DNA of 64,000 nt from an uncultured Latescibacterota bacterium (lineage in GTDB: Bacteria; Latescibacterota; UBA2968). Shown here piece after piece: positions 14,079-64,000 of the stretch. Under the pieces are notes generated by a model. The model made no database searches. It saw nothing but the letters and a program-made list of their open reading frames with translations, and was not told where the DNA came from. Position 1 is the first letter of the stretch. Each line of letters begins with the position of its first letter. The position numbers were made by a program, and so were the translations under genes. The stretch is taken from positions 2,060,394 to 2,124,393 of the forward strand of contig OY282377.1 in NCBI GenBank assembly GCA_958295785.1, in the 5' to 3' direction.

Positions 14079-15146
14079 GTGAACAACAGAGAAGAGAGGA
14101 TGGAAAAGCTAAAAACGCGCGTAGAGGAGGGAATGAGAGTACTTAAAAAAGACGAGTATCTCGGTTTGAGCTATGTAGATGAGATTGTGATTCCAGTGTT
14201 GAAGGAGGTGTTGCAAGACTTGTGCCTCGAAATCGAAGAACGTCATAAGCTTGATGAACCTGAAAGCTGGCAAGAAAATTTTGTCATTCACTACACAAGT
14301 ATCGATACTCTCGTTTCCATGCTTCAGCAAGAAGCAAAGAACAAACAGAATGCAGCAAAGAACGGACAGAATGAGGCGAAGGACGAGCAAGAATCTTCAA
14401 AGGACGAACAGAATGCTTCGTTGCGGCTGTACGACTCCGTACATTTCAACGATCCAGACGAGGGCAATTACTTTTTTCGCAATCTGGACCTGCCGAAAAA
14501 ATACGATTGGCTAGGCAAAAAAAAGGAATCCCACGCCTATATCGCCTCTTTTATTATTCCCGCTATTGAAAAAAATAGCGACAATCTCGTGTTTTGGTGT
14601 ACTTATGGGAAAGAGGGCGAAGGATGCTCTTTGAAGCTCCGCATCCCGAGGAATCGATTGCGGAAAGTTCTTTACGGTGCTGATGAGGATAAATGCACGG
14701 AGGAGATCCTACAGCGTATCTTGGATATTCTAGATAATGCTCTAAAGCCGTTGATAAGCATTGGGGAACGGTCACTGAAGGAAAAGGTCCGAGAAAAATT
14801 AGCAGAGGTCATTTGGAGGTATTTGGAAAAAATTCGCTACTTGTACAAGAGCGAAGCGTACAGTTATGAGCAAGAATGTCGTTTTGTTATTCCTGAATTA
14901 GATACTAAAAAAGACAAAATCTGCTTTGAGGATCAGGAGCAAAACAATTCTCCTGACGTAAGACACTACTATGAGCATGAGGATCTCAAAGTCAAAAATA
15001 TATTGACTACTGGCAGTTCAATCACGCTCGGCCCTCGTGTACCTTATCCCTACAATATGAGCTATTACATCAAAAGCCTGCTTACTAAAGCAGGCTTAGC
15101 TGGTCCGGAAATCAAGACCTCCAAAATATCCTATCGAAAACCTTGA
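14079..15146 (+). CDS. DUF2971-like protein with heptad repeats
   Basis: This 355-residue protein starts at GTG 14079, 7 bases after AAAGGAGG. DUF2971-like features are FVIHYTSIDTLVSML (about 68-82), RLYDSVHFNDPDEGNYF (about 118-134), DNLVFWCTYGKEGEGCSLKL (about 168-187), and YLYKSEAYSYEQECRFVI (about 250-270). The function of the family is unknown, although it is common in defence neighbourhoods. Four seven-residue units rich in Lys, Gln and Asn (about 85-112) interrupt the first domain and correspond to a 21-base tandem repeat. The DNA is more AT-rich than its neighbours, suggesting recent transfer. It follows the restriction-modification gene and ends tail-to-tail with the JAB-E1 gene, overlapping it by 35 bases. 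Confidence 0.7.
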   Translation: MNNREERMEKLKTRVEEGMRVLKKDEYLGLSYVDEIVIPVLKEVLQDLCLEIEERHKLDEPESWQENFVIHYTSIDTLVSMLQQEAKNKQNAAKNGQNEAKDEQESSKDEQNASLRLYDSVHFNDPDEGNYFFRNLDLPKKYDWLGKKKESHAYIASFIIPAIEKNSDNLVFWCTYGKEGEGCSLKLRIPRNRLRKVLYGADEDKCTEEILQRILDILDNALKPLISIGERSLKEKVREKLAEVIWRYLEKIRYLYKSEAYSYEQECRFVIPELDTKKDKICFEDQEQNNSPDVRHYYEHEDLKVKNILTTGSSITLGPRVPYPYNMSYYIKSLLTKAGLAGPEIKTSKISYRKP

Positions 15147-49388: not shown

Positions 49389-50141
49389 TTACTCTTTGAC
49401 GATGACGACTGTGACGCCGGTTGTCTCGGCACGCTGACGGTCCTGGACAGTGATACTGTCTCCGATTACGACAGGGGTGACGGGCTGCTGAGTGATTAGC
49501 GCGAAGGTCTTGGCGCGGTCAGCCACGCGGCTGATGTCGCTTGCGTCAATGGTTAGGGAGATTTCTATGACCGCGCATATCTCGGTCAGATCGCTCCTGC
49601 GGCGTCCGGTCAGTACAATGTCAGTGTTTCCCAGATTCTGGCCCTGCTCGGCGGTGATTATCCCCTGGTCCTCAGCATCCAGTATCTGGACTGACAGGTC
49701 ATCGCTGTGGGGGATGTATTCGCTCCACACGACTCTTACATCACGCATATTGAGTTTGTGATTGGCGGTGTTGGTGATGAAACGCGTAATGCGGTGTTCG
49801 TAATTTCTGCCTCTCAGGTTACCAACTCTCCCCTCTACTCTGGACAGGCCGGCTTCCAGCTTTGCTTGGCCGGCTTCCAGCTTTGCTTGACCGGCTTTGA
49901 GATCGGATACATCCGCTTCCAGCCTTGCTTGGCCGGCTTTGAGCTCAGATACATCCCGCTCCAGACGTTCCACTCTGGCCGGCAGATCCATCAGCCGGTC
50001 CACTTTGGCCGGGAGCATCAGAAAGTCGTCCGTCAGCAGGGTTCTAAGCAGGATGGAGCGGGCCTCCGGGTTTTCATTCAACTCGGCGACCATCCGGGCT
50101 GCCAAGCTTTCTGGGTTTAGAGTTTCGATGGCTGGGATCAT
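49389..50141 (-). CDS. Coiled-coil protein with a nuclease-like C-terminal domain
   Basis: This 250-residue protein starts at an ATG with GAGGAG about 8 bases upstream. Residues 45-110 are a coiled coil with tandem 7-residue units (LKAGQARLEADVSDLKAGQ, then AKLEAGQAKLEAG). The C-terminal domain (about 110-250) has NTDIVLTGRRRSDLTEICAV and VIEISLTIDASDISR, then VTPVVIGDSI. This pattern of D ... E-x-S with alternating strands resembles PD-(D/E)xK-like domains in coiled-coil proteins such as DUF3782-type families. The lysine of the motif is not obvious. It sits upstream of the frameshifted gene and the DUF262 triad on the same strand. Confidence 0.65.
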   Translation of the reverse strand: MIPAIETLNPESLAARMVAELNENPEARSILLRTLLTDDFLMLPAKVDRLMDLPARVERLERDVSELKAGQARLEADVSDLKAGQAKLEAGQAKLEAGLSRVEGRVGNLRGRNYEHRITRFITNTANHKLNMRDVRVVWSEYIPHSDDLSVQILDAEDQGIITAEQGQNLGNTDIVLTGRRRSDLTEICAVIEISLTIDASDISRVADRAKTFALITQQPVTPVVIGDSITVQDRQRAETTGVTVVIVKE

Positions 50142-58008: not shown

Positions 58009-58155
58009 TGCGAAGATGCGTTCCCAACTCATGTATCTATCGGGGAACGACTTATAGAACCAGATCTCGCGCCGGTTGTGCCGCGCATTCTTTCGTCAGG
58101 GGAGAGGGGAAAGATAGGTGCTGAAAGTCAGTACTGTAGCGTGCAACCGGCCCGT

Positions 58156-58192
58156 AAAACGGAGGTTCCTTTTGGAATCTCCGTTTTTTTAG
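58156..58192 (+). terminator. Rho-independent terminator
   Basis: AAAACGGAG-GTTCC pairs with GGAAT-CTCCGTTTT (one mismatch) around a TTTT loop, followed by TTT. It separates the recombination-like gene from the GWxTD gene. Confidence 0.85.
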
Positions 58193-58275
58193 TCGTTGTC
58201 CAATGGCTTGTGTTTTCTAGTTTTTTTTCGTATCATAAGATCGAACACAGGCGATCAAAAACGAGGGGGCTCGTT

Positions 58276-60630
58276 ATGAAATGGATGATGCTGGGCGTTT
58301 TGTGCGCCGCGCTGGTCGTGGCGACAGAGGGGCAGGCAAAAAATGCTTCGCCAGAGGCAATCGCCGCAGCGGAAAAAGCATATCGAGAAGGACTGAAACA
58401 ATTGGCGTCCGGCGATTTGGATGCGGCGCGCTTGTCTTTTCAATCCGCGATAGATCAGCATGAAAAATACGCACCCGCCTATGTGGGCCTGGGCCATACC
58501 CATTTGAAACAGGGCGATTTGGATGCGGCGGAAAAGGCGTTTAAGCATGCGGTGGCAAAAGACAAAAAGCACGCGCCCGCATACAATGGGTTGGGCCTGG
58601 TTTATCGCAATAAAAACAAGGAATTGCGGCGGGCAATTGCGTATTTTCGGGATGCAATCAGGGCGGACAAACAGTATTCGGAAGCGCGATACAACCTGGC
58701 GCGAACACTGGAAGAATACGGCAACAGCGAGACGCTCAAAGCCTATCGCAATGTCTTGGAAATCGATCCCAAACACCCCAATGCGAATTATCGCCTGGGA
58801 ATATTGCTGGATGAGAACCGGGAATATGAAAAGGCCGTGCAGGCGTATCGCGATCAGTTGGCAGCAAAGCCGGATCACTACGGCGCGCGGTTGAATTTGG
58901 GCATCGATCTCAAAGCACTCGGGCAATTGCGCGAAGCACTTCAGCATCTGGTCGAGGTTGCAAAAGTTGCCAACGATTTTCAGCGGCGGGCCGTGCTGGA
59001 ATTGGCGCAGGTGTTTCAAAAGGCCAAGGCGTTTGACAATGCCGCGCAATTGTTCGCATCTTATATCAAACAATTGCCAGAAAAAGACAGGGAACTGTAT
59101 TGGGATCTGACATTCGCCGCATCAGGCCCCATTCTCGATCAATACAACGCCGCCGAGACGATGGCCGAGCGAACGCGCATTTTCAGGGCATTTTGGTCGC
59201 GCTTAGACCCGGCACCCGTCACAGAGGCCAATGAGCGGTTGTTGGAACACTATCGCCGAGTCGCGTACGCACGCGAATTTTTTGGCGCGCACCGGTTTCC
59301 GTGGGACGCACGCGGCGAGGCGTATATCCGCTATGGGGCTCCCGATCATGTGAGCAATTCTGGCAATATCCGCTTGGAGCGAACCAAGGATGTGGTTGCT
59401 GTCAAAGAGCGGCTCATTCAAAAGGCAGGGCCTGCGGCAGAACAACTGGCGAAAGCGCGGATCGATGAGGTGAGCGAAAACATGGTGGGCATGCGCGATC
59501 AGTTGCGCCGTGAAGCCAACACAGTTGAGAATCGCGCCCGCGACCGAGCGCGCGTGGCCGGCGCGACCATTTTGGGGTGGCCCGTATATCCGGTGGATGG
59601 GATATGGGAATACTGGATCTATGCAGATGTGGGCGATGGCATTGAGGTCGTGTTTGAACAGCGCATGAACCAAGGCGCCTGGGATTATGCCGATGTGCCG
59701 CTCGGTCGCGGGCGCGTTGCGCGAATATGGCAAGAGATGCACTCAGAGCGCGTTTTGCACCAAGTCGCCGCGTTCGCGCCGACGCATTATCGCCCGGATT
59801 TTGCGACCGGGCCCTTGGATTTTTATTTGGCCTCATCGGCGTTTCGCGGGAAAGATGGCCTGACCGCGCTCGAAGTTTATTACGGCATTCCAACGTCGCA
59901 GTTGCACTTTGCGCCTGGGCCGGATGGCAAACAGGTCGCACACCTAAATCGCGGTGTGGCGGTGTACAATCGGAAGGGCGATCCGGTGTATCGCACAAGT
60001 CGGGAAATGGTGCTGCCTGGTGAGATCAATCGGTCCGCAGGCGCGTACCTGCCCGAGTTTGATCGCTTGCTCCTAACCCCGGGCGAGTATCGCATTGCGG
60101 TTCAGATCTTGGATCGCCGTTCGAGAAAATCGCAGGTGTACCAGATCCAGCGCGTCATCCCGGAATTTGATGCAGACGATGAATTGAAAATCAGCGACGT
60201 GGAACTCGCCGCCACCATCGACATAAGCGATAAGAGCCGATTCCAAAAGGGCGACTTGGCCGTGATCCCACTCGCTTCAAAAACGTATTCGCCCGCGCAA
60301 CCCGTGTTCATCTATTTTGAAATCTACAACTTGAAACGCAATGCGTTCGGCCAAACCCGATACCGCGTGTCTTATGTGGTGCGCTCGCGCGACCAAAAGA
60401 CTATCGGCGTGCGAATTTTGGGCGGCGTGGGCAACTTGCTCGGTCAAAAGCGCGATCAGGGCGTTATATCCATTGAATACGAACAGGTGGGCGCAGAAAC
60501 GCAAGCACCGGGGTATCTTGAATTGGATATGTCGCGCTCTGAACCGGGAGAAAAAATCGTGGAAATTGCAATTGTAGATGAAACCACAGGCCAAACCGCA
60601 AGCGCGACAACAACGCTTGTCATTCAATAG
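58276..60630 (+). CDS. TPR and GWxTD domain protein
   Basis: The start ATG at 58276 begins a signal peptide (MKWMMLGVLCAALVVATEGQ) and has GAGGGGG upstream, giving 784 residues. Residues 25-330 contain about seven TPR-type helix pairs (GDLDAARLSFQSAIDQHEKY, GDLDAAEKAFKHAVAKDKKH, EYEKAVQAYRDQLAAKPDHY). From about 345 the GWxTD domain follows, with a variant core FPWDARGEAYIRYGAPDHV. The C-terminal 200 residues are beta-rich. GWxTD proteins are typical of FCB-group bacteria and their function is unknown. They are often secreted or periplasmic. The last 17 codons are duplicated three more times downstream with the coiled-coil genes. Confidence 0.85.
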   Translation: MKWMMLGVLCAALVVATEGQAKNASPEAIAAAEKAYREGLKQLASGDLDAARLSFQSAIDQHEKYAPAYVGLGHTHLKQGDLDAAEKAFKHAVAKDKKHAPAYNGLGLVYRNKNKELRRAIAYFRDAIRADKQYSEARYNLARTLEEYGNSETLKAYRNVLEIDPKHPNANYRLGILLDENREYEKAVQAYRDQLAAKPDHYGARLNLGIDLKALGQLREALQHLVEVAKVANDFQRRAVLELAQVFQKAKAFDNAAQLFASYIKQLPEKDRELYWDLTFAASGPILDQYNAAETMAERTRIFRAFWSRLDPAPVTEANERLLEHYRRVAYAREFFGAHRFPWDARGEAYIRYGAPDHVSNSGNIRLERTKDVVAVKERLIQKAGPAAEQLAKARIDEVSENMVGMRDQLRREANTVENRARDRARVAGATILGWPVYPVDGIWEYWIYADVGDGIEVVFEQRMNQGAWDYADVPLGRGRVARIWQEMHSERVLHQVAAFAPTHYRPDFATGPLDFYLASSAFRGKDGLTALEVYYGIPTSQLHFAPGPDGKQVAHLNRGVAVYNRKGDPVYRTSREMVLPGEINRSAGAYLPEFDRLLLTPGEYRIAVQILDRRSRKSQVYQIQRVIPEFDADDELKISDVELAATIDISDKSRFQKGDLAVIPLASKTYSPAQPVFIYFEIYNLKRNAFGQTRYRVSYVVRSRDQKTIGVRILGGVGNLLGQKRDQGVISIEYEQVGAETQAPGYLELDMSRSEPGEKIVEIAIVDETTGQTASATTTLVIQ

Positions 60631-60642
60631 AGGAGCAACACC

Positions 60643-61041
60643 ATGACTGGATTCGATACCCTCAAGGTAGCCGTGCGGTTGCAGGAGGAAGCAGGCTTTG
60701 AAGAACACCAAGCGCGTGCCTTGGTGACCGCTTTTGCCGAAGGCATGGGTGAGGAACTGGCGACAAAAAATGATCTGGAGAAGACAGAGGCTGCTCTGCA
60801 AGGCCAGATTGTCGCTCTGAAAAGCGATCTGGAGAAAACAGAAACTGCTCTGCAAGGCCAGATTGTCGCTCTGAAAAACGATCTGGAGAAAACAGAGGCG
60901 ACACTGAGGAGCGATCTGGAAAAGATGGCTGCGATATTGCGGAGTGAGATGCGCGAACTTGAGCAGCGTATGACCTTGCGGCTTGGGGCGATGATTGCCG
61001 CCGCGGTGGGAATTATCGTGGCGGTGGATAAGTTGCTATAA
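60643..61041 (+). CDS. DUF1640-like coiled-coil membrane protein, copy 1
   Basis: This 132-residue protein starts at an ATG behind GAGGAGCAACACC. It has an N-terminal helical part (FDTLKVAVRLQEEAGFEEHQ, ALVTAFAEGMGEELATKNDL), a coiled coil built from modules of 18, 18 and 11 residues (LEKTEAALQGQIVALKSD and LEKTEATLRSD types), and a C-terminal transmembrane helix (LGAMIAAAVGIIVAVDKLL). This is the DUF1640/CCDC90-like layout. The N-terminal part would lie in the cytoplasm, with the protein tail-anchored. It is separated from the GWxTD stop by 12 bases. Confidence 0.85.
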   Translation: MTGFDTLKVAVRLQEEAGFEEHQARALVTAFAEGMGEELATKNDLEKTEAALQGQIVALKSDLEKTETALQGQIVALKNDLEKTEATLRSDLEKMAAILRSEMRELEQRMTLRLGAMIAAAVGIIVAVDKLL

Positions 61042-61170
61042 GCGAGAACGGATCCGTGTTAAAAAACGCAGAAAAAATAGGGGACTGTATTTGTGAACTC
61101 CACCACTGAAACCACAGGTTAAACAGCAAGCGCGACAACAATGCTTGTCATTCAATAGAGGAGCAACACC

Positions 61171-61635
61171 ATGACTGGATTCGATACCCTCAAGGTAGCC
61201 GTGCGGTTGCAGGAGGAAGCAGGCTTCGAAGAACACCAAGCGCGTGCCTTGGTGACCGCTTTTGCCGAAGGCATGGGTGAGGAACTGGCGACAAAAAATG
61301 ATCTGGAGAAGACAGAGGCTGCCTTGAAGAGCGATCTGGAGAAGACAGAGGCTGCTCTGCAAGGCCAGATTGTCGCTCTGAAAAGCGATCTGGAGAAGAC
61401 AGAGACCGCTCTGAAAAGCGATCTGGAGAAGACAGAAACTGCTCTGCAAGGCCAGATTGTCGCTCTGAAAAACGATCTGGAGAAAACAGAGGCGACACTG
61501 AGGAGCGATCTGGAAAAGATGGCTACGATATTGCGGAGTGAGATGCGCGAACTTGAGCAACGTATGACCTTGCGGCTCGGGGCGATGATTGCCGCCGCGG
61601 TGGGAATTATCGTGGCAGTGGATAAGTTGCTATAA
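61171..61635 (+). CDS. DUF1640-like coiled-coil membrane protein, copy 2
   Basis: This 154-residue copy keeps the ATG start and Shine-Dalgarno. The module order is 11, 18, 11, 18, 11 residues before the invariant LEKMATILRSEMRELEQRM segment. The N-terminal and transmembrane parts are identical or nearly so to copy 1. The difference from copy 1 is two extra 11-residue (33-base) modules. Confidence 0.85.
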   Translation: MTGFDTLKVAVRLQEEAGFEEHQARALVTAFAEGMGEELATKNDLEKTEAALKSDLEKTEAALQGQIVALKSDLEKTETALKSDLEKTETALQGQIVALKNDLEKTEATLRSDLEKMATILRSEMRELEQRMTLRLGAMIAAAVGIIVAVDKLL

Positions 61636-61764
61636 GCGAGAGCGAATCCGTGTTAAAAAACGCAGAAAAAATAGGGGACTGTATTTGTGAACTCCACCAC
61701 TGAAACCACAGGTTAAACAGCAAGCGCGACAACAATGCTTGTCATTCAATAGAGGAGCAACACC

Positions 61765-62175
61765 CTGACTGGATTCGATACCCTCAAGGCAGCCGTGCGG
61801 TTGCAGGAGGAAGCAGGCTTCGAAGAACACCAAGCGCGTGCCTTGGTGACCGCTTTTGCCGAAGGCATGGGTGAGGAACTGGCGACAAAAAATGATCTGG
61901 AGAAGACAGAGGCTGCCTTGAAGAGCGATCTGGAGAAGACAGAGGCTGCTCTGCAAGGCCAGATTGTCGCTCTGAAAAGCGATCTGGAGAAAACAGAGAC
62001 CGCTCTGAGGAGCGATCTGGAGAAAACAGAGGCGACACTGAGGAGCGATCTGGAAAAGATGGCTACGATATTGCGGAGTGAGATGCGCGAACTTGAGCAA
62101 CGTATGACCTTGCGGCTCGGGGCGATGATTGCCGCTGCGGTGGGAATTATCGTGGCAGTGGATAAGTTGCTATAA
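61765..62175 (+). CDS. DUF1640-like coiled-coil membrane protein, copy 3 (CTG start)
   Basis: The start codon has changed from ATG to CTG at 61765 while the Shine-Dalgarno GAGGAG and the rest of the frame are intact. Reading from the CTG gives 136 residues; the next methionine is well inside the conserved region. Modules are 11, 18, 11, 11. CTG is a poor bacterial start, so expression may be low or absent. The lack of other damage suggests recent duplication. Confidence 0.65.
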   Translation: MTGFDTLKAAVRLQEEAGFEEHQARALVTAFAEGMGEELATKNDLEKTEAALKSDLEKTEAALQGQIVALKSDLEKTETALRSDLEKTEATLRSDLEKMATILRSEMRELEQRMTLRLGAMIAAAVGIIVAVDKLL

Positions 62176-62304
62176 GCGAGAACGGATCCGTGTTAAAAAA
62201 CGCAGAAAAAATAGGGGACTGTATTTGTGAACTCCACCACTGAAACCACAGGTTAAACAGCAAGCGCGACAACAATGCTTGTCATTCAATAGAGGAGCAA
62301 CACC

Positions 62305-62802
62305 CTGACTGGATTCGATACCCTCAAGGTAGCCGTGCGGTTGCAGGAGGAAGCAGGCTTCGAAGAACACCAAGCGCGTGCCTTGGTGACCGCTTTTGCC
62401 GAAGGCATGGGTGAGGAACTGGCGACAAAAAATGATTTGGAGAAGACAGAGGCTGCCTTGAAGAGCGATCTGGAGAAGACAGAGGCTGCTCTGCAAGGCC
62501 AGATTGTCGCTCTGAAAAACGATCTGGAGAAAACAGAGGCGACACTGAAGAGCGATCTGGAGAAAACAGAGGCGACACTGAGGAGCGATCTGGAGAAGAC
62601 AGAAACTGCTCTGCAAGGCCAGATTGTCGCTCTGAAAAACGATCTGGAGAAAACAGAGGCGACACTGAGGAGCGATCTGGAAAAGATGGCTGCGATATTG
62701 CGGAGTGAGATGCGCGAACTTGAGCAACGTATGACCTTGCGGCTAGGGGCGATGATTGCCGCCGCGGTGGGAATTATCGTGGCGGTGGATAAGTTGCTAT
62801 AA
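62305..62802 (+). CDS. DUF1640-like coiled-coil membrane protein, copy 4 (CTG start)
   Basis: This copy shares the CTG start change with copy 3, so copies 3 and 4 probably derive from one another. It is the longest, 165 residues, with modules 11, 18, 11, 11, 18, 11 before LEKMAAILRSE. The frame is intact to the transmembrane helix and stop. The unit's downstream segment differs slightly from those of the other copies (GCAGGAAAAATAGGTGAC). Confidence 0.65.
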   Translation: MTGFDTLKVAVRLQEEAGFEEHQARALVTAFAEGMGEELATKNDLEKTEAALKSDLEKTEAALQGQIVALKNDLEKTEATLKSDLEKTEATLRSDLEKTETALQGQIVALKNDLEKTEATLRSDLEKMAAILRSEMRELEQRMTLRLGAMIAAAVGIIVAVDKLL

Positions 62803-62988
62803 GCGAGAGCGAATCCGTTGTTAAAAAACGCAGGAAAAATAGGTGACTGTATTTGTGAACTCCACCACTTAGCCACGTTGCCCCAAGCGCGATACCCATG
62901 GAGCGGCACTGTACAAGTATCAACCAACGACACGGTTCGCATCAACATACGCGACCTCTTGCCGTGTTTTCTTTAAGGAGCAAATTCA

Positions 62989-64000
62989 ATGCGTGTTTTC
63001 GATGTATCAGTCATGCGAGCACAGGCGCGTGAAATTTTTGATGCGGCGGTCAAAGCGGTCGATGCCGAGCAATGCGTGCGGCAATTTGTCTCGCTGAAAG
63101 GCGATCAGTTGCGCGTGGGGGATCAACAGTACGATTTGGGCACGTATCGGCGCATCTTGGTGGTGGGAACGGGCAAAGCGTCTCCGCAAATGGGGGCCGC
63201 GCTCGAAGATGTATTGGGCGAGCGCATTTCTGGCGGATCCATGAATACCAAATACGACCACGCCTTGCCCCTCAAGCGTATTGACGTGGTGGAATGCGGC
63301 CATCCCGTGCCCGACGAAGCCGGCGTTGCGGGTGTGGCACGCATGGTGCGCCTGTTGAAAGAAGCAGACGAAAAGACGCTGGTGATCTGTTTGATTTCCG
63401 GCGGTGGCTCGGCACTCGCGCCCGCGCCTGCGGAGGGCTTGACGCTGACCGACAAACAAGAGACCACGAGTTTGTTGTTGGCCTGTGGTGCAAATATCGT
63501 GGAACTCAATGCCATTCGCAAACACCTGTCGCGCTTAAAAGGAGGCGGTTTGGCGCGTGCGGCGTTTCCCGCAACGGTTGTGGCATTGATGTTGTCCGAT
63601 GTGATTGGCGATCCCATGGATGTCATTGCCTCTGGCCCCACGGTGCCCGATACGGCGACATTTCAGACGTGTATGGATATTTTGGACAAATACGACTTGG
63701 TTGTCCAAGTACCCGAGCGCGTGCGGTCTCGGCTCGAAGCCGGTGTGGCCGGGCAGATTGAGGACACGCCCAAGCCGGGGGATGTGGCTTTGTCCAAAGT
63801 TCAAAATCTCATTGTGGGCAGCAATGGCCTCGCAGTGGCTGCGGCAAATGAGAAGGCCAAAGCATTGGGCTATCACACGCTGGTGTTATCGACCCGCATC
63901 GAGGGCGAGGCGCGAGAAGTCGCCTGCGTTTATGCGGGCATTGCCAAAGAAATCGCGACCTCTAGACAGCCCATCGCGCCACCCGCCTGTGTGATTGCCG
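62989..64000 (+). CDS. Glycerate 2-kinase (GckA/TtuD, DUF4147-MOFRL type), cut by window edge
   Basis: The frame starts at ATG 62989, 8 bases after TTTAAGGAG, and stays open for 337 codons to the right edge. The family motifs are VVGTGKASPQMG (with a conserved lysine), VECGHPVPDEAG, CLISGGGSALAPAP, LNAIRKHLSRLKGGGLA, LMLSDVIGDPMDVIASGPT and IVGSNGLAV. Class II glycerate kinases phosphorylate D-glycerate to 2-phosphoglycerate, feeding sugar-acid breakdown into glycolysis. This suits the acid-sugar enzymes elsewhere in the window. The C-terminal MOFRL domain would lie beyond the edge. Confidence 0.93.
   Translation, partial: MRVFDVSVMRAQAREIFDAAVKAVDAEQCVRQFVSLKGDQLRVGDQQYDLGTYRRILVVGTGKASPQMGAALEDVLGERISGGSMNTKYDHALPLKRIDVVECGHPVPDEAGVAGVARMVRLLKEADEKTLVICLISGGGSALAPAPAEGLTLTDKQETTSLLLACGANIVELNAIRKHLSRLKGGGLARAAFPATVVALMLSDVIGDPMDVIASGPTVPDTATFQTCMDILDKYDLVVQVPERVRSRLEAGVAGQIEDTPKPGDVALSKVQNLIVGSNGLAVAAANEKAKALGYHTLVLSTRIEGEAREVACVYAGIAKEIATSRQPIAPPACVIA

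Follow-up and report, generated by a model that had tools for sequence, protein, structure and literature searches.

Four tandem copies of a CCDC90-like (PF07798, formerly DUF1640) membrane protein gene lie in the window, that is, the whole stretch of 64,000 nucleotides analysed here, and they differ almost only in the modules from which their coiled-coil stalks are built. The array would encode isoforms of a single inner-membrane protein, tail-anchored and of the MCUR1/CCDC90 kind, in which the head would sit on a cytoplasm-facing stalk of variable length, and its gene number and stalk lengths would have been shaped by recombination. This account of anatomy and recombination is given a probability of about 0.72. 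It overlaps with an explanation by neutral change of length, the sole point of disagreement being whether gene number and stalk length are of consequence.

Anatomy of the window array

An array of four tandem copies of a DUF1640-like membrane gene had been described in an earlier note on this DNA; the array is real, it is located at 60643-62802, and every described detail holds. Its features and those adjoining it upstream are given below.

58078-60630, TPR gene with a weak GWxTD-domain match, upstream of the array
60579..60642, plus strand, 3' end of the TPR gene and a leader containing GAGGAG, source of the piece repeated in units 2-4 (direct-repeat family, by sequence)
60643..61041, plus strand, copy 1, 132 aa, ATG start, stalk 18-18-11 and fixed 11
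61107..61170, plus strand, unit 2 remnant, TPR gene 3' end and leader
61171..61635, plus strand, copy 2, 154 aa, ATG start, stalk 11-18-11-18-11 and fixed 11
61701..61764, plus strand, unit 3 remnant, TPR gene 3' end and leader
61765..62175, plus strand, copy 3, 136 codons from CTG, stalk 11-18-11-11 and fixed 11
62241..62304, plus strand, unit 4 remnant, TPR gene 3' end and leader
62305..62802, plus strand, copy 4, 165 codons from CTG, stalk 11-18-11-11-18-11 and fixed 11

The four module orders had been reported before and proved exact, all four stalks being parsed without remainder. Apart from how many 33- and 54-bp modules they have and how these are ordered, the copies hardly differ: outside the stalk their identity amounts to 97-99% over the 393 bases compared, far beyond chance. 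Some features had been overlooked, among them a fixed 11-residue module, SDLEKMA(A/T)ILR, which ends each stalk and had not been counted, and the start codon, which is ATG in copies 1 and 2 and CTG in copies 3 and 4. Translation of copies 3 and 4, which lack ATG, may be weak or absent.

It had also gone unnoticed that the repeated unit takes in more than the gene itself: some 50 bp copied from the 3' end of the TPR gene upstream accompany each of units 2-4. The units are spaced at 528, 594 and 540 bp, differences that correspond to stalk modules. The TPR remnants of units 2-4 have four substitutions in common, one of which is an in-frame stop, and for this reason the three units most likely descend from one duplicated unit and not from separate events. 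A promoter scan of the array found none, and shuffled sequences give 1.3. The ATG to CTG change is common to 61765 and 62305, and a Shine-Dalgarno-like site is retained.

Past the array, a gene starting near 62990 resembles glycerate kinase by eye. Two other places in the window contain repeats. On the minus strand at 49389-50141 a coiled-coil protein with 7-residue repeats (SDLKAGQAKLEAGQAKLEAG) is encoded, for which Pfam gives weak coil matches only and whose C-terminal part may be a nuclease-like domain. At 14334-14417 four imperfect 21-bp repeats (EAKNKQNAAKNGQNEAKDEQ) are located in a 355-codon reading frame without a Pfam match.

Protein family and coiled-coil register

In the window proteins a small head is joined through an ATK "neck" to a coiled-coil stalk, which leads into a predicted membrane helix at the C-terminus. 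With the curated Pfam cut-off for PF07798 at 33.5 bits, copies 2, 3 and 4 score 34.0, 38.6 and 34.8 bits respectively, and copy 1 stays just under it (32.8 bits, 0.7 bits short). The neck ELATKND is present in all four copies and fits the beta-layer motif [aliphatic]-A-T-K-[polar]-[DE], with which DUF1640 stalks start (PMC4786415). A profile made from the four window copies and seven relatives gave matches, with modest scores, to two solved structures, 6h9l (E 5e-4) and 6h9m (E 0.0066). The latter contains human CCDC90B, and its match covers the head, where the motif FDT...L...GF...QA is aligned. AlphaFold predicts helices at residues 6-17 and 21-131 with a mean pLDDT of 89, in a single-chain model that is silent on oligomers. 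The Foldseek search of the PDB gave no significant match, as is expected of a single long helix, and is uninformative. The hydrophobic segment is located at the C-terminus, the 20 residues preceding it hold four K+R and three D+E, and no signal peptide or export signal is evident in the window proteins. The product would most likely be a rod in the inner membrane, of tunable length and with its head in the cytoplasm. This orientation is taken from the analogous Put6/Put7, hetero-oligomer-forming proteins that face the matrix of mitochondria (PMC7519068); the stalk itself would presumably be trimeric.

It had been proposed that 11- and 18-residue steps keep the coiled-coil register, and this is upheld both by the sums of the modules and by the measured period. 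Modules of 11 residues correspond to 3 turns and those of 18 residues to 5, an unstrained helix having 3.63 residues per turn (PMC4786415). The window stalks, including the fixed module, amount to 58/16, 80/22, 62/17 and 91/25 residues per turn, which is by arithmetic 3.625-3.647 and close to the unstrained value. Fourier analysis puts the hydrophobic period at 3.585-3.62 in the window copies and at 3.64 in the longest copy of a 16-gene array in the same genome, with a power about 2-3 times the 99th percentile of shuffles. Since each module is either a hendecad (11 residues, 3 turns) or a hendecad with a heptad (18 residues, 5 turns), mixtures retain the reading frame together with the coil phase, and because this applies to any mixture, changes of length are tolerated, which is no proof that length is selected.

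A second array, recombination and relatives

The 5.66-Mb single-contig genome contains 33 PF07798 matches, and two arrays are present, of which that in the window is the smaller. The other one, which the earlier note missed, is more striking.

about 1.7036-1.7141 Mb (L061:5599-16121), 16-gene tandem array of a second CCDC90-like subfamily

Genes of this array score up to 50.6 bits with PF07798, their spacers are mostly 99-110 bp long and bear AAAGGAGGAG, and two different insertions of transposase-like genes interrupt the series. All 16 stalk arrangements are distinct; they are composed of 11- and 7-residue units and measure 22-113 residues, which would make them roughly 3 to 17 nm long if each residue adds 0.148 nm. 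The whole proteins range from 87 to 181 aa. Identical DNA modules are found at several ordinal positions in different genes. It was also seen that two 7-residue units are never adjacent, a pattern which is not significant (permutation P 0.08). Other members with 11/18 stalks in the genome are a 326-residue single gene (L063), a 190-residue gene (L062) and a pair (L064), and in the long gene and in other subfamilies the stalk parse is less clean. How hendecad and heptad modules combine could readily be tested on the 16-gene array, and the genes form a natural experiment in which both protein ends are constant and coil length alone changes.

Repeats of more than 500 bp are difficult for short reads, and an error of assembly or sequencing could in principle produce such arrays. 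This is extremely improbable here, given that the genome is a single contig with 99% completeness, the window copies carry distinct, diagnostic substitutions, frameshifts occur in none of the 20 genes and the 16-copy sister array is interrupted by two different transposase insertions; assembly artefact was rejected on these grounds.

The non-stalk bases of the window copies contain 5 parsimony-informative sites, and 8 of the 10 site pairs show all four combinations. The start codon unites copies 3 and 4, two downstream sites unite copies 1 and 4, and two others copies 1 and 3, by which all three possible groupings of four copies are present. These variants are incompatible with any single tree, and the copies have therefore recombined. 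Exchange between copies would be the simple cause, repeated mutation seeming unlikely at 1-3% divergence. The 16-gene array has 35 incompatible pairs among 66 informative ones, and its 12 head and 7 anchor haplotypes occur in 14 combinations. It had been suggested that the window array is an actively recombining length-variation system. Recombination on the scale of evolutionary time is supported by the incompatible pairs; variation within the present population may occur, and ordinary repeat recombination may account for the array as well as a dedicated "system".

The head and anchor of the window genes have a dN of 0.003 and a dS of 0.060 (dN/dS about 0.05); judging from these sequences, the invariant ends of the copies are under purifying selection. 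For the head and anchor of the 16-gene array (192 bases), mean dN is 0.005 and dS 0.127, with 3 nonsynonymous versus 16 synonymous changes.

Ten congeneric genomes have 0-3 family matches each versus 33 here, one single-contig congener having none, and in a phylum sample of 64 genomes the next highest count is 5. Length variation of the kind supposed earlier was found when genomes of the lineage were searched: at one syntenic locus, near the same SDR gene in three congeners, module number has changed, the ortholog stalks differing by 66 and 21 bp and the sequence flanking these differences being nearly identical. At the counterpart of this locus in the genome under study, the SDR gene is located at 1314510-1315232 and has no CCDC90-like match beside it. 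The closest relatives found outside the genus belong to Alphaproteobacteria and Nitrospirales. In a tree of head and anchor the window genes are placed beside a Nitrospirales gene with support of 85/77, which is not strong. The members from this genome are scattered over several groups that also contain other phyla; strong branches force three label changes or more, and the mixture would likely result from transfer between phyla. On the Nitrospirales chromosome OY282373 (L092:2224-5823), from a genome with 19 PF07798 matches, two CCDC90-like genes are each followed by a transposase gene, IS30-type by eye. Relatives also occur in phages and phage-like plasmids. The genes adjoining family members vary by locus and give no functional hint, and a literature search found nothing linking sponge symbionts with the CCDC90-like family.

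An alphaproteobacterial chromosome (OY282368) bears three copies (L094, L095 and L098), two of them 6 kb apart and one about 240 kb away, whose head and anchor have no differences (0/225) and whose 11/18 stalks have three different orders. Directly downstream of the stop codon, 13 of 46 bases differ between two of these copies. Such identical ends beside diverged flanks point to gene conversion and not merely to recent copying. Taken together, the 16 distinct stalks, the identical-ended alphaproteobacterial copies and the differences among congeners indicate that the turnover of modules outpaces substitution of the ends.

The window array could have been formed in the following manner, of which we infer the order of the duplication steps. 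A first illegitimate duplication, carrying the end of the upstream TPR gene, would have given a tandem pair, after which homologous recombination between units of more than 500 bp would have altered the number of genes and spread variants from copy to copy. Stalk length would have changed by whole modules through unequal exchange or slippage between the 33- and 54-bp modules. Head and anchor would have stayed constant under purifying selection, with gene conversion between copies also acting in one related genome or more. It may be supposed that the rods serve the cell as spacers or scaffolds of graded reach.

According to a neutral explanation, arrays and module changes are a by-product of repeat recombination, any length works and gene number has no function; this is a serious possibility, if with somewhat less than an even chance. 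Steps of whole modules are automatic when in-frame repeats recombine, so that they need no selection and are no proof of selection for length. The low match counts in the congeners suggest that the arrays are dispensable in the genus, and some copies may be decaying, to judge from the CTG starts of copies 3 and 4. However, the heads and anchors of 20 genes are open and nearly invariant in protein at a synonymous divergence of 6-13%, whereas unneeded copies would be expected to have accumulated frameshifts, stops and amino-acid changes, which counts against useless genes but not against neutral length.

The opposite idea, that length variation is selected as such, for example in evasion of phages or in tuning contact at different partner distances, is unlikely. 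It draws on the fact that no two stalks in the 16-gene array are alike, on the occurrence of relatives in phages and phage-like plasmids, and on the recurrence of the pattern in the alphaproteobacterium and in Borrelia (bdrT repeat numbers, PMC3303823). Nevertheless, varied stalks are expected even without selection, and neither a recombinase nor an expression-site arrangement was seen next to the window array. Evasion at the surface is made unlikely by the lack of an evident signal peptide and by the description of the Borrelia Bdr proteins as inner-membrane ones (PMC4370689). Variation of a surface antigen is likewise not favoured, an export signal not being evident. Purposeful length diversity is at best unlikely, and tolerated variation in functional genes receives the larger share. 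Quite doubtful is a true length library, in which a co-transcribed ladder of trimeric membrane rods, about 3 to 17 nm long and otherwise identical, would have the length set itself as its function; recombination in the 11/18 code would then keep the rods diverse, and gene conversion and selection would keep the ends uniform.

Comparison with known systems

MCUR1/CCDC90B and yeast Put6/Put7 share with the window proteins the Pfam family, the neck, the stalk and, probably, the C-terminal anchor; unlike the latter they are eukaryotic mitochondrial proteins, and we know of no tandem arrays or module shuffling among them. In streptococcal M proteins and trimeric autotransporter stalks the length of the coiled coil changes via recombination between in-frame repeats, but these are surface proteins, whereas the window proteins are without an evident export signal. 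The DUF16 / RepMP1 proteins of Mycoplasma pneumoniae are a large coiled-coil paralog family in which the number of 21-nt (7-residue) repeats varies between strains (PMC3472980); they differ from the window proteins in their 7-residue steps, in an unrelated domain and in having many copies spread over the genome. Tandem chromosomal arrays of CCDC90-like genes in which the ends are invariant and every stalk is different are, as far as found, undescribed.

The closest precedent, missed in the earlier note, is the family Bdr (Borrelia direct repeat, PFam80) of Lyme-group spirochetes. A tblastn search of plasmids with copy 1 gave mostly Borrelia records, annotated as Bdr among the matches listed. 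Like the window genes, bdr genes are multicopy paralogs whose products have a repeat stalk between an N-terminal domain and a membrane helix at the C-terminus. The one B. miyamotoi Bdr inspected, which was found by tblastn with a window protein via the stalk (E 3e-5), has an 18-11-11-18 stalk of modules similar to those of the window (ASLKSDIRDLDNKIDKVE, TSLKSDIEKVE) and a C-terminal hydrophobic segment; its PF07798 score of 28.0 bits is below the cut-off. The head is different, since Bdr_N_group1 (NF040499) matches the B. miyamotoi protein and neither of the two window proteins scanned. The location is different as well: the B. miyamotoi gene (L117:1039-1635) sits on a cp30 plasmid, flanked by genes for a phage terminase and portal, whereas the window genes form a chromosomal tandem array. 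Bdr repeat number varies between B. burgdorferi strains, bdrT orthologs of two strains having about 9 versus about 6 repeats (PMC3303823). As the 11/18 modules and the variation between strains are shared with Bdr, this kind of thing is already known. Bdr proteins have been described as unique to Borrelia and are an unexplained multicopy repeat family (PMC4370689), and a CCDC90-linked 11/18 code in another phylum and in Alphaproteobacteria widens the base.
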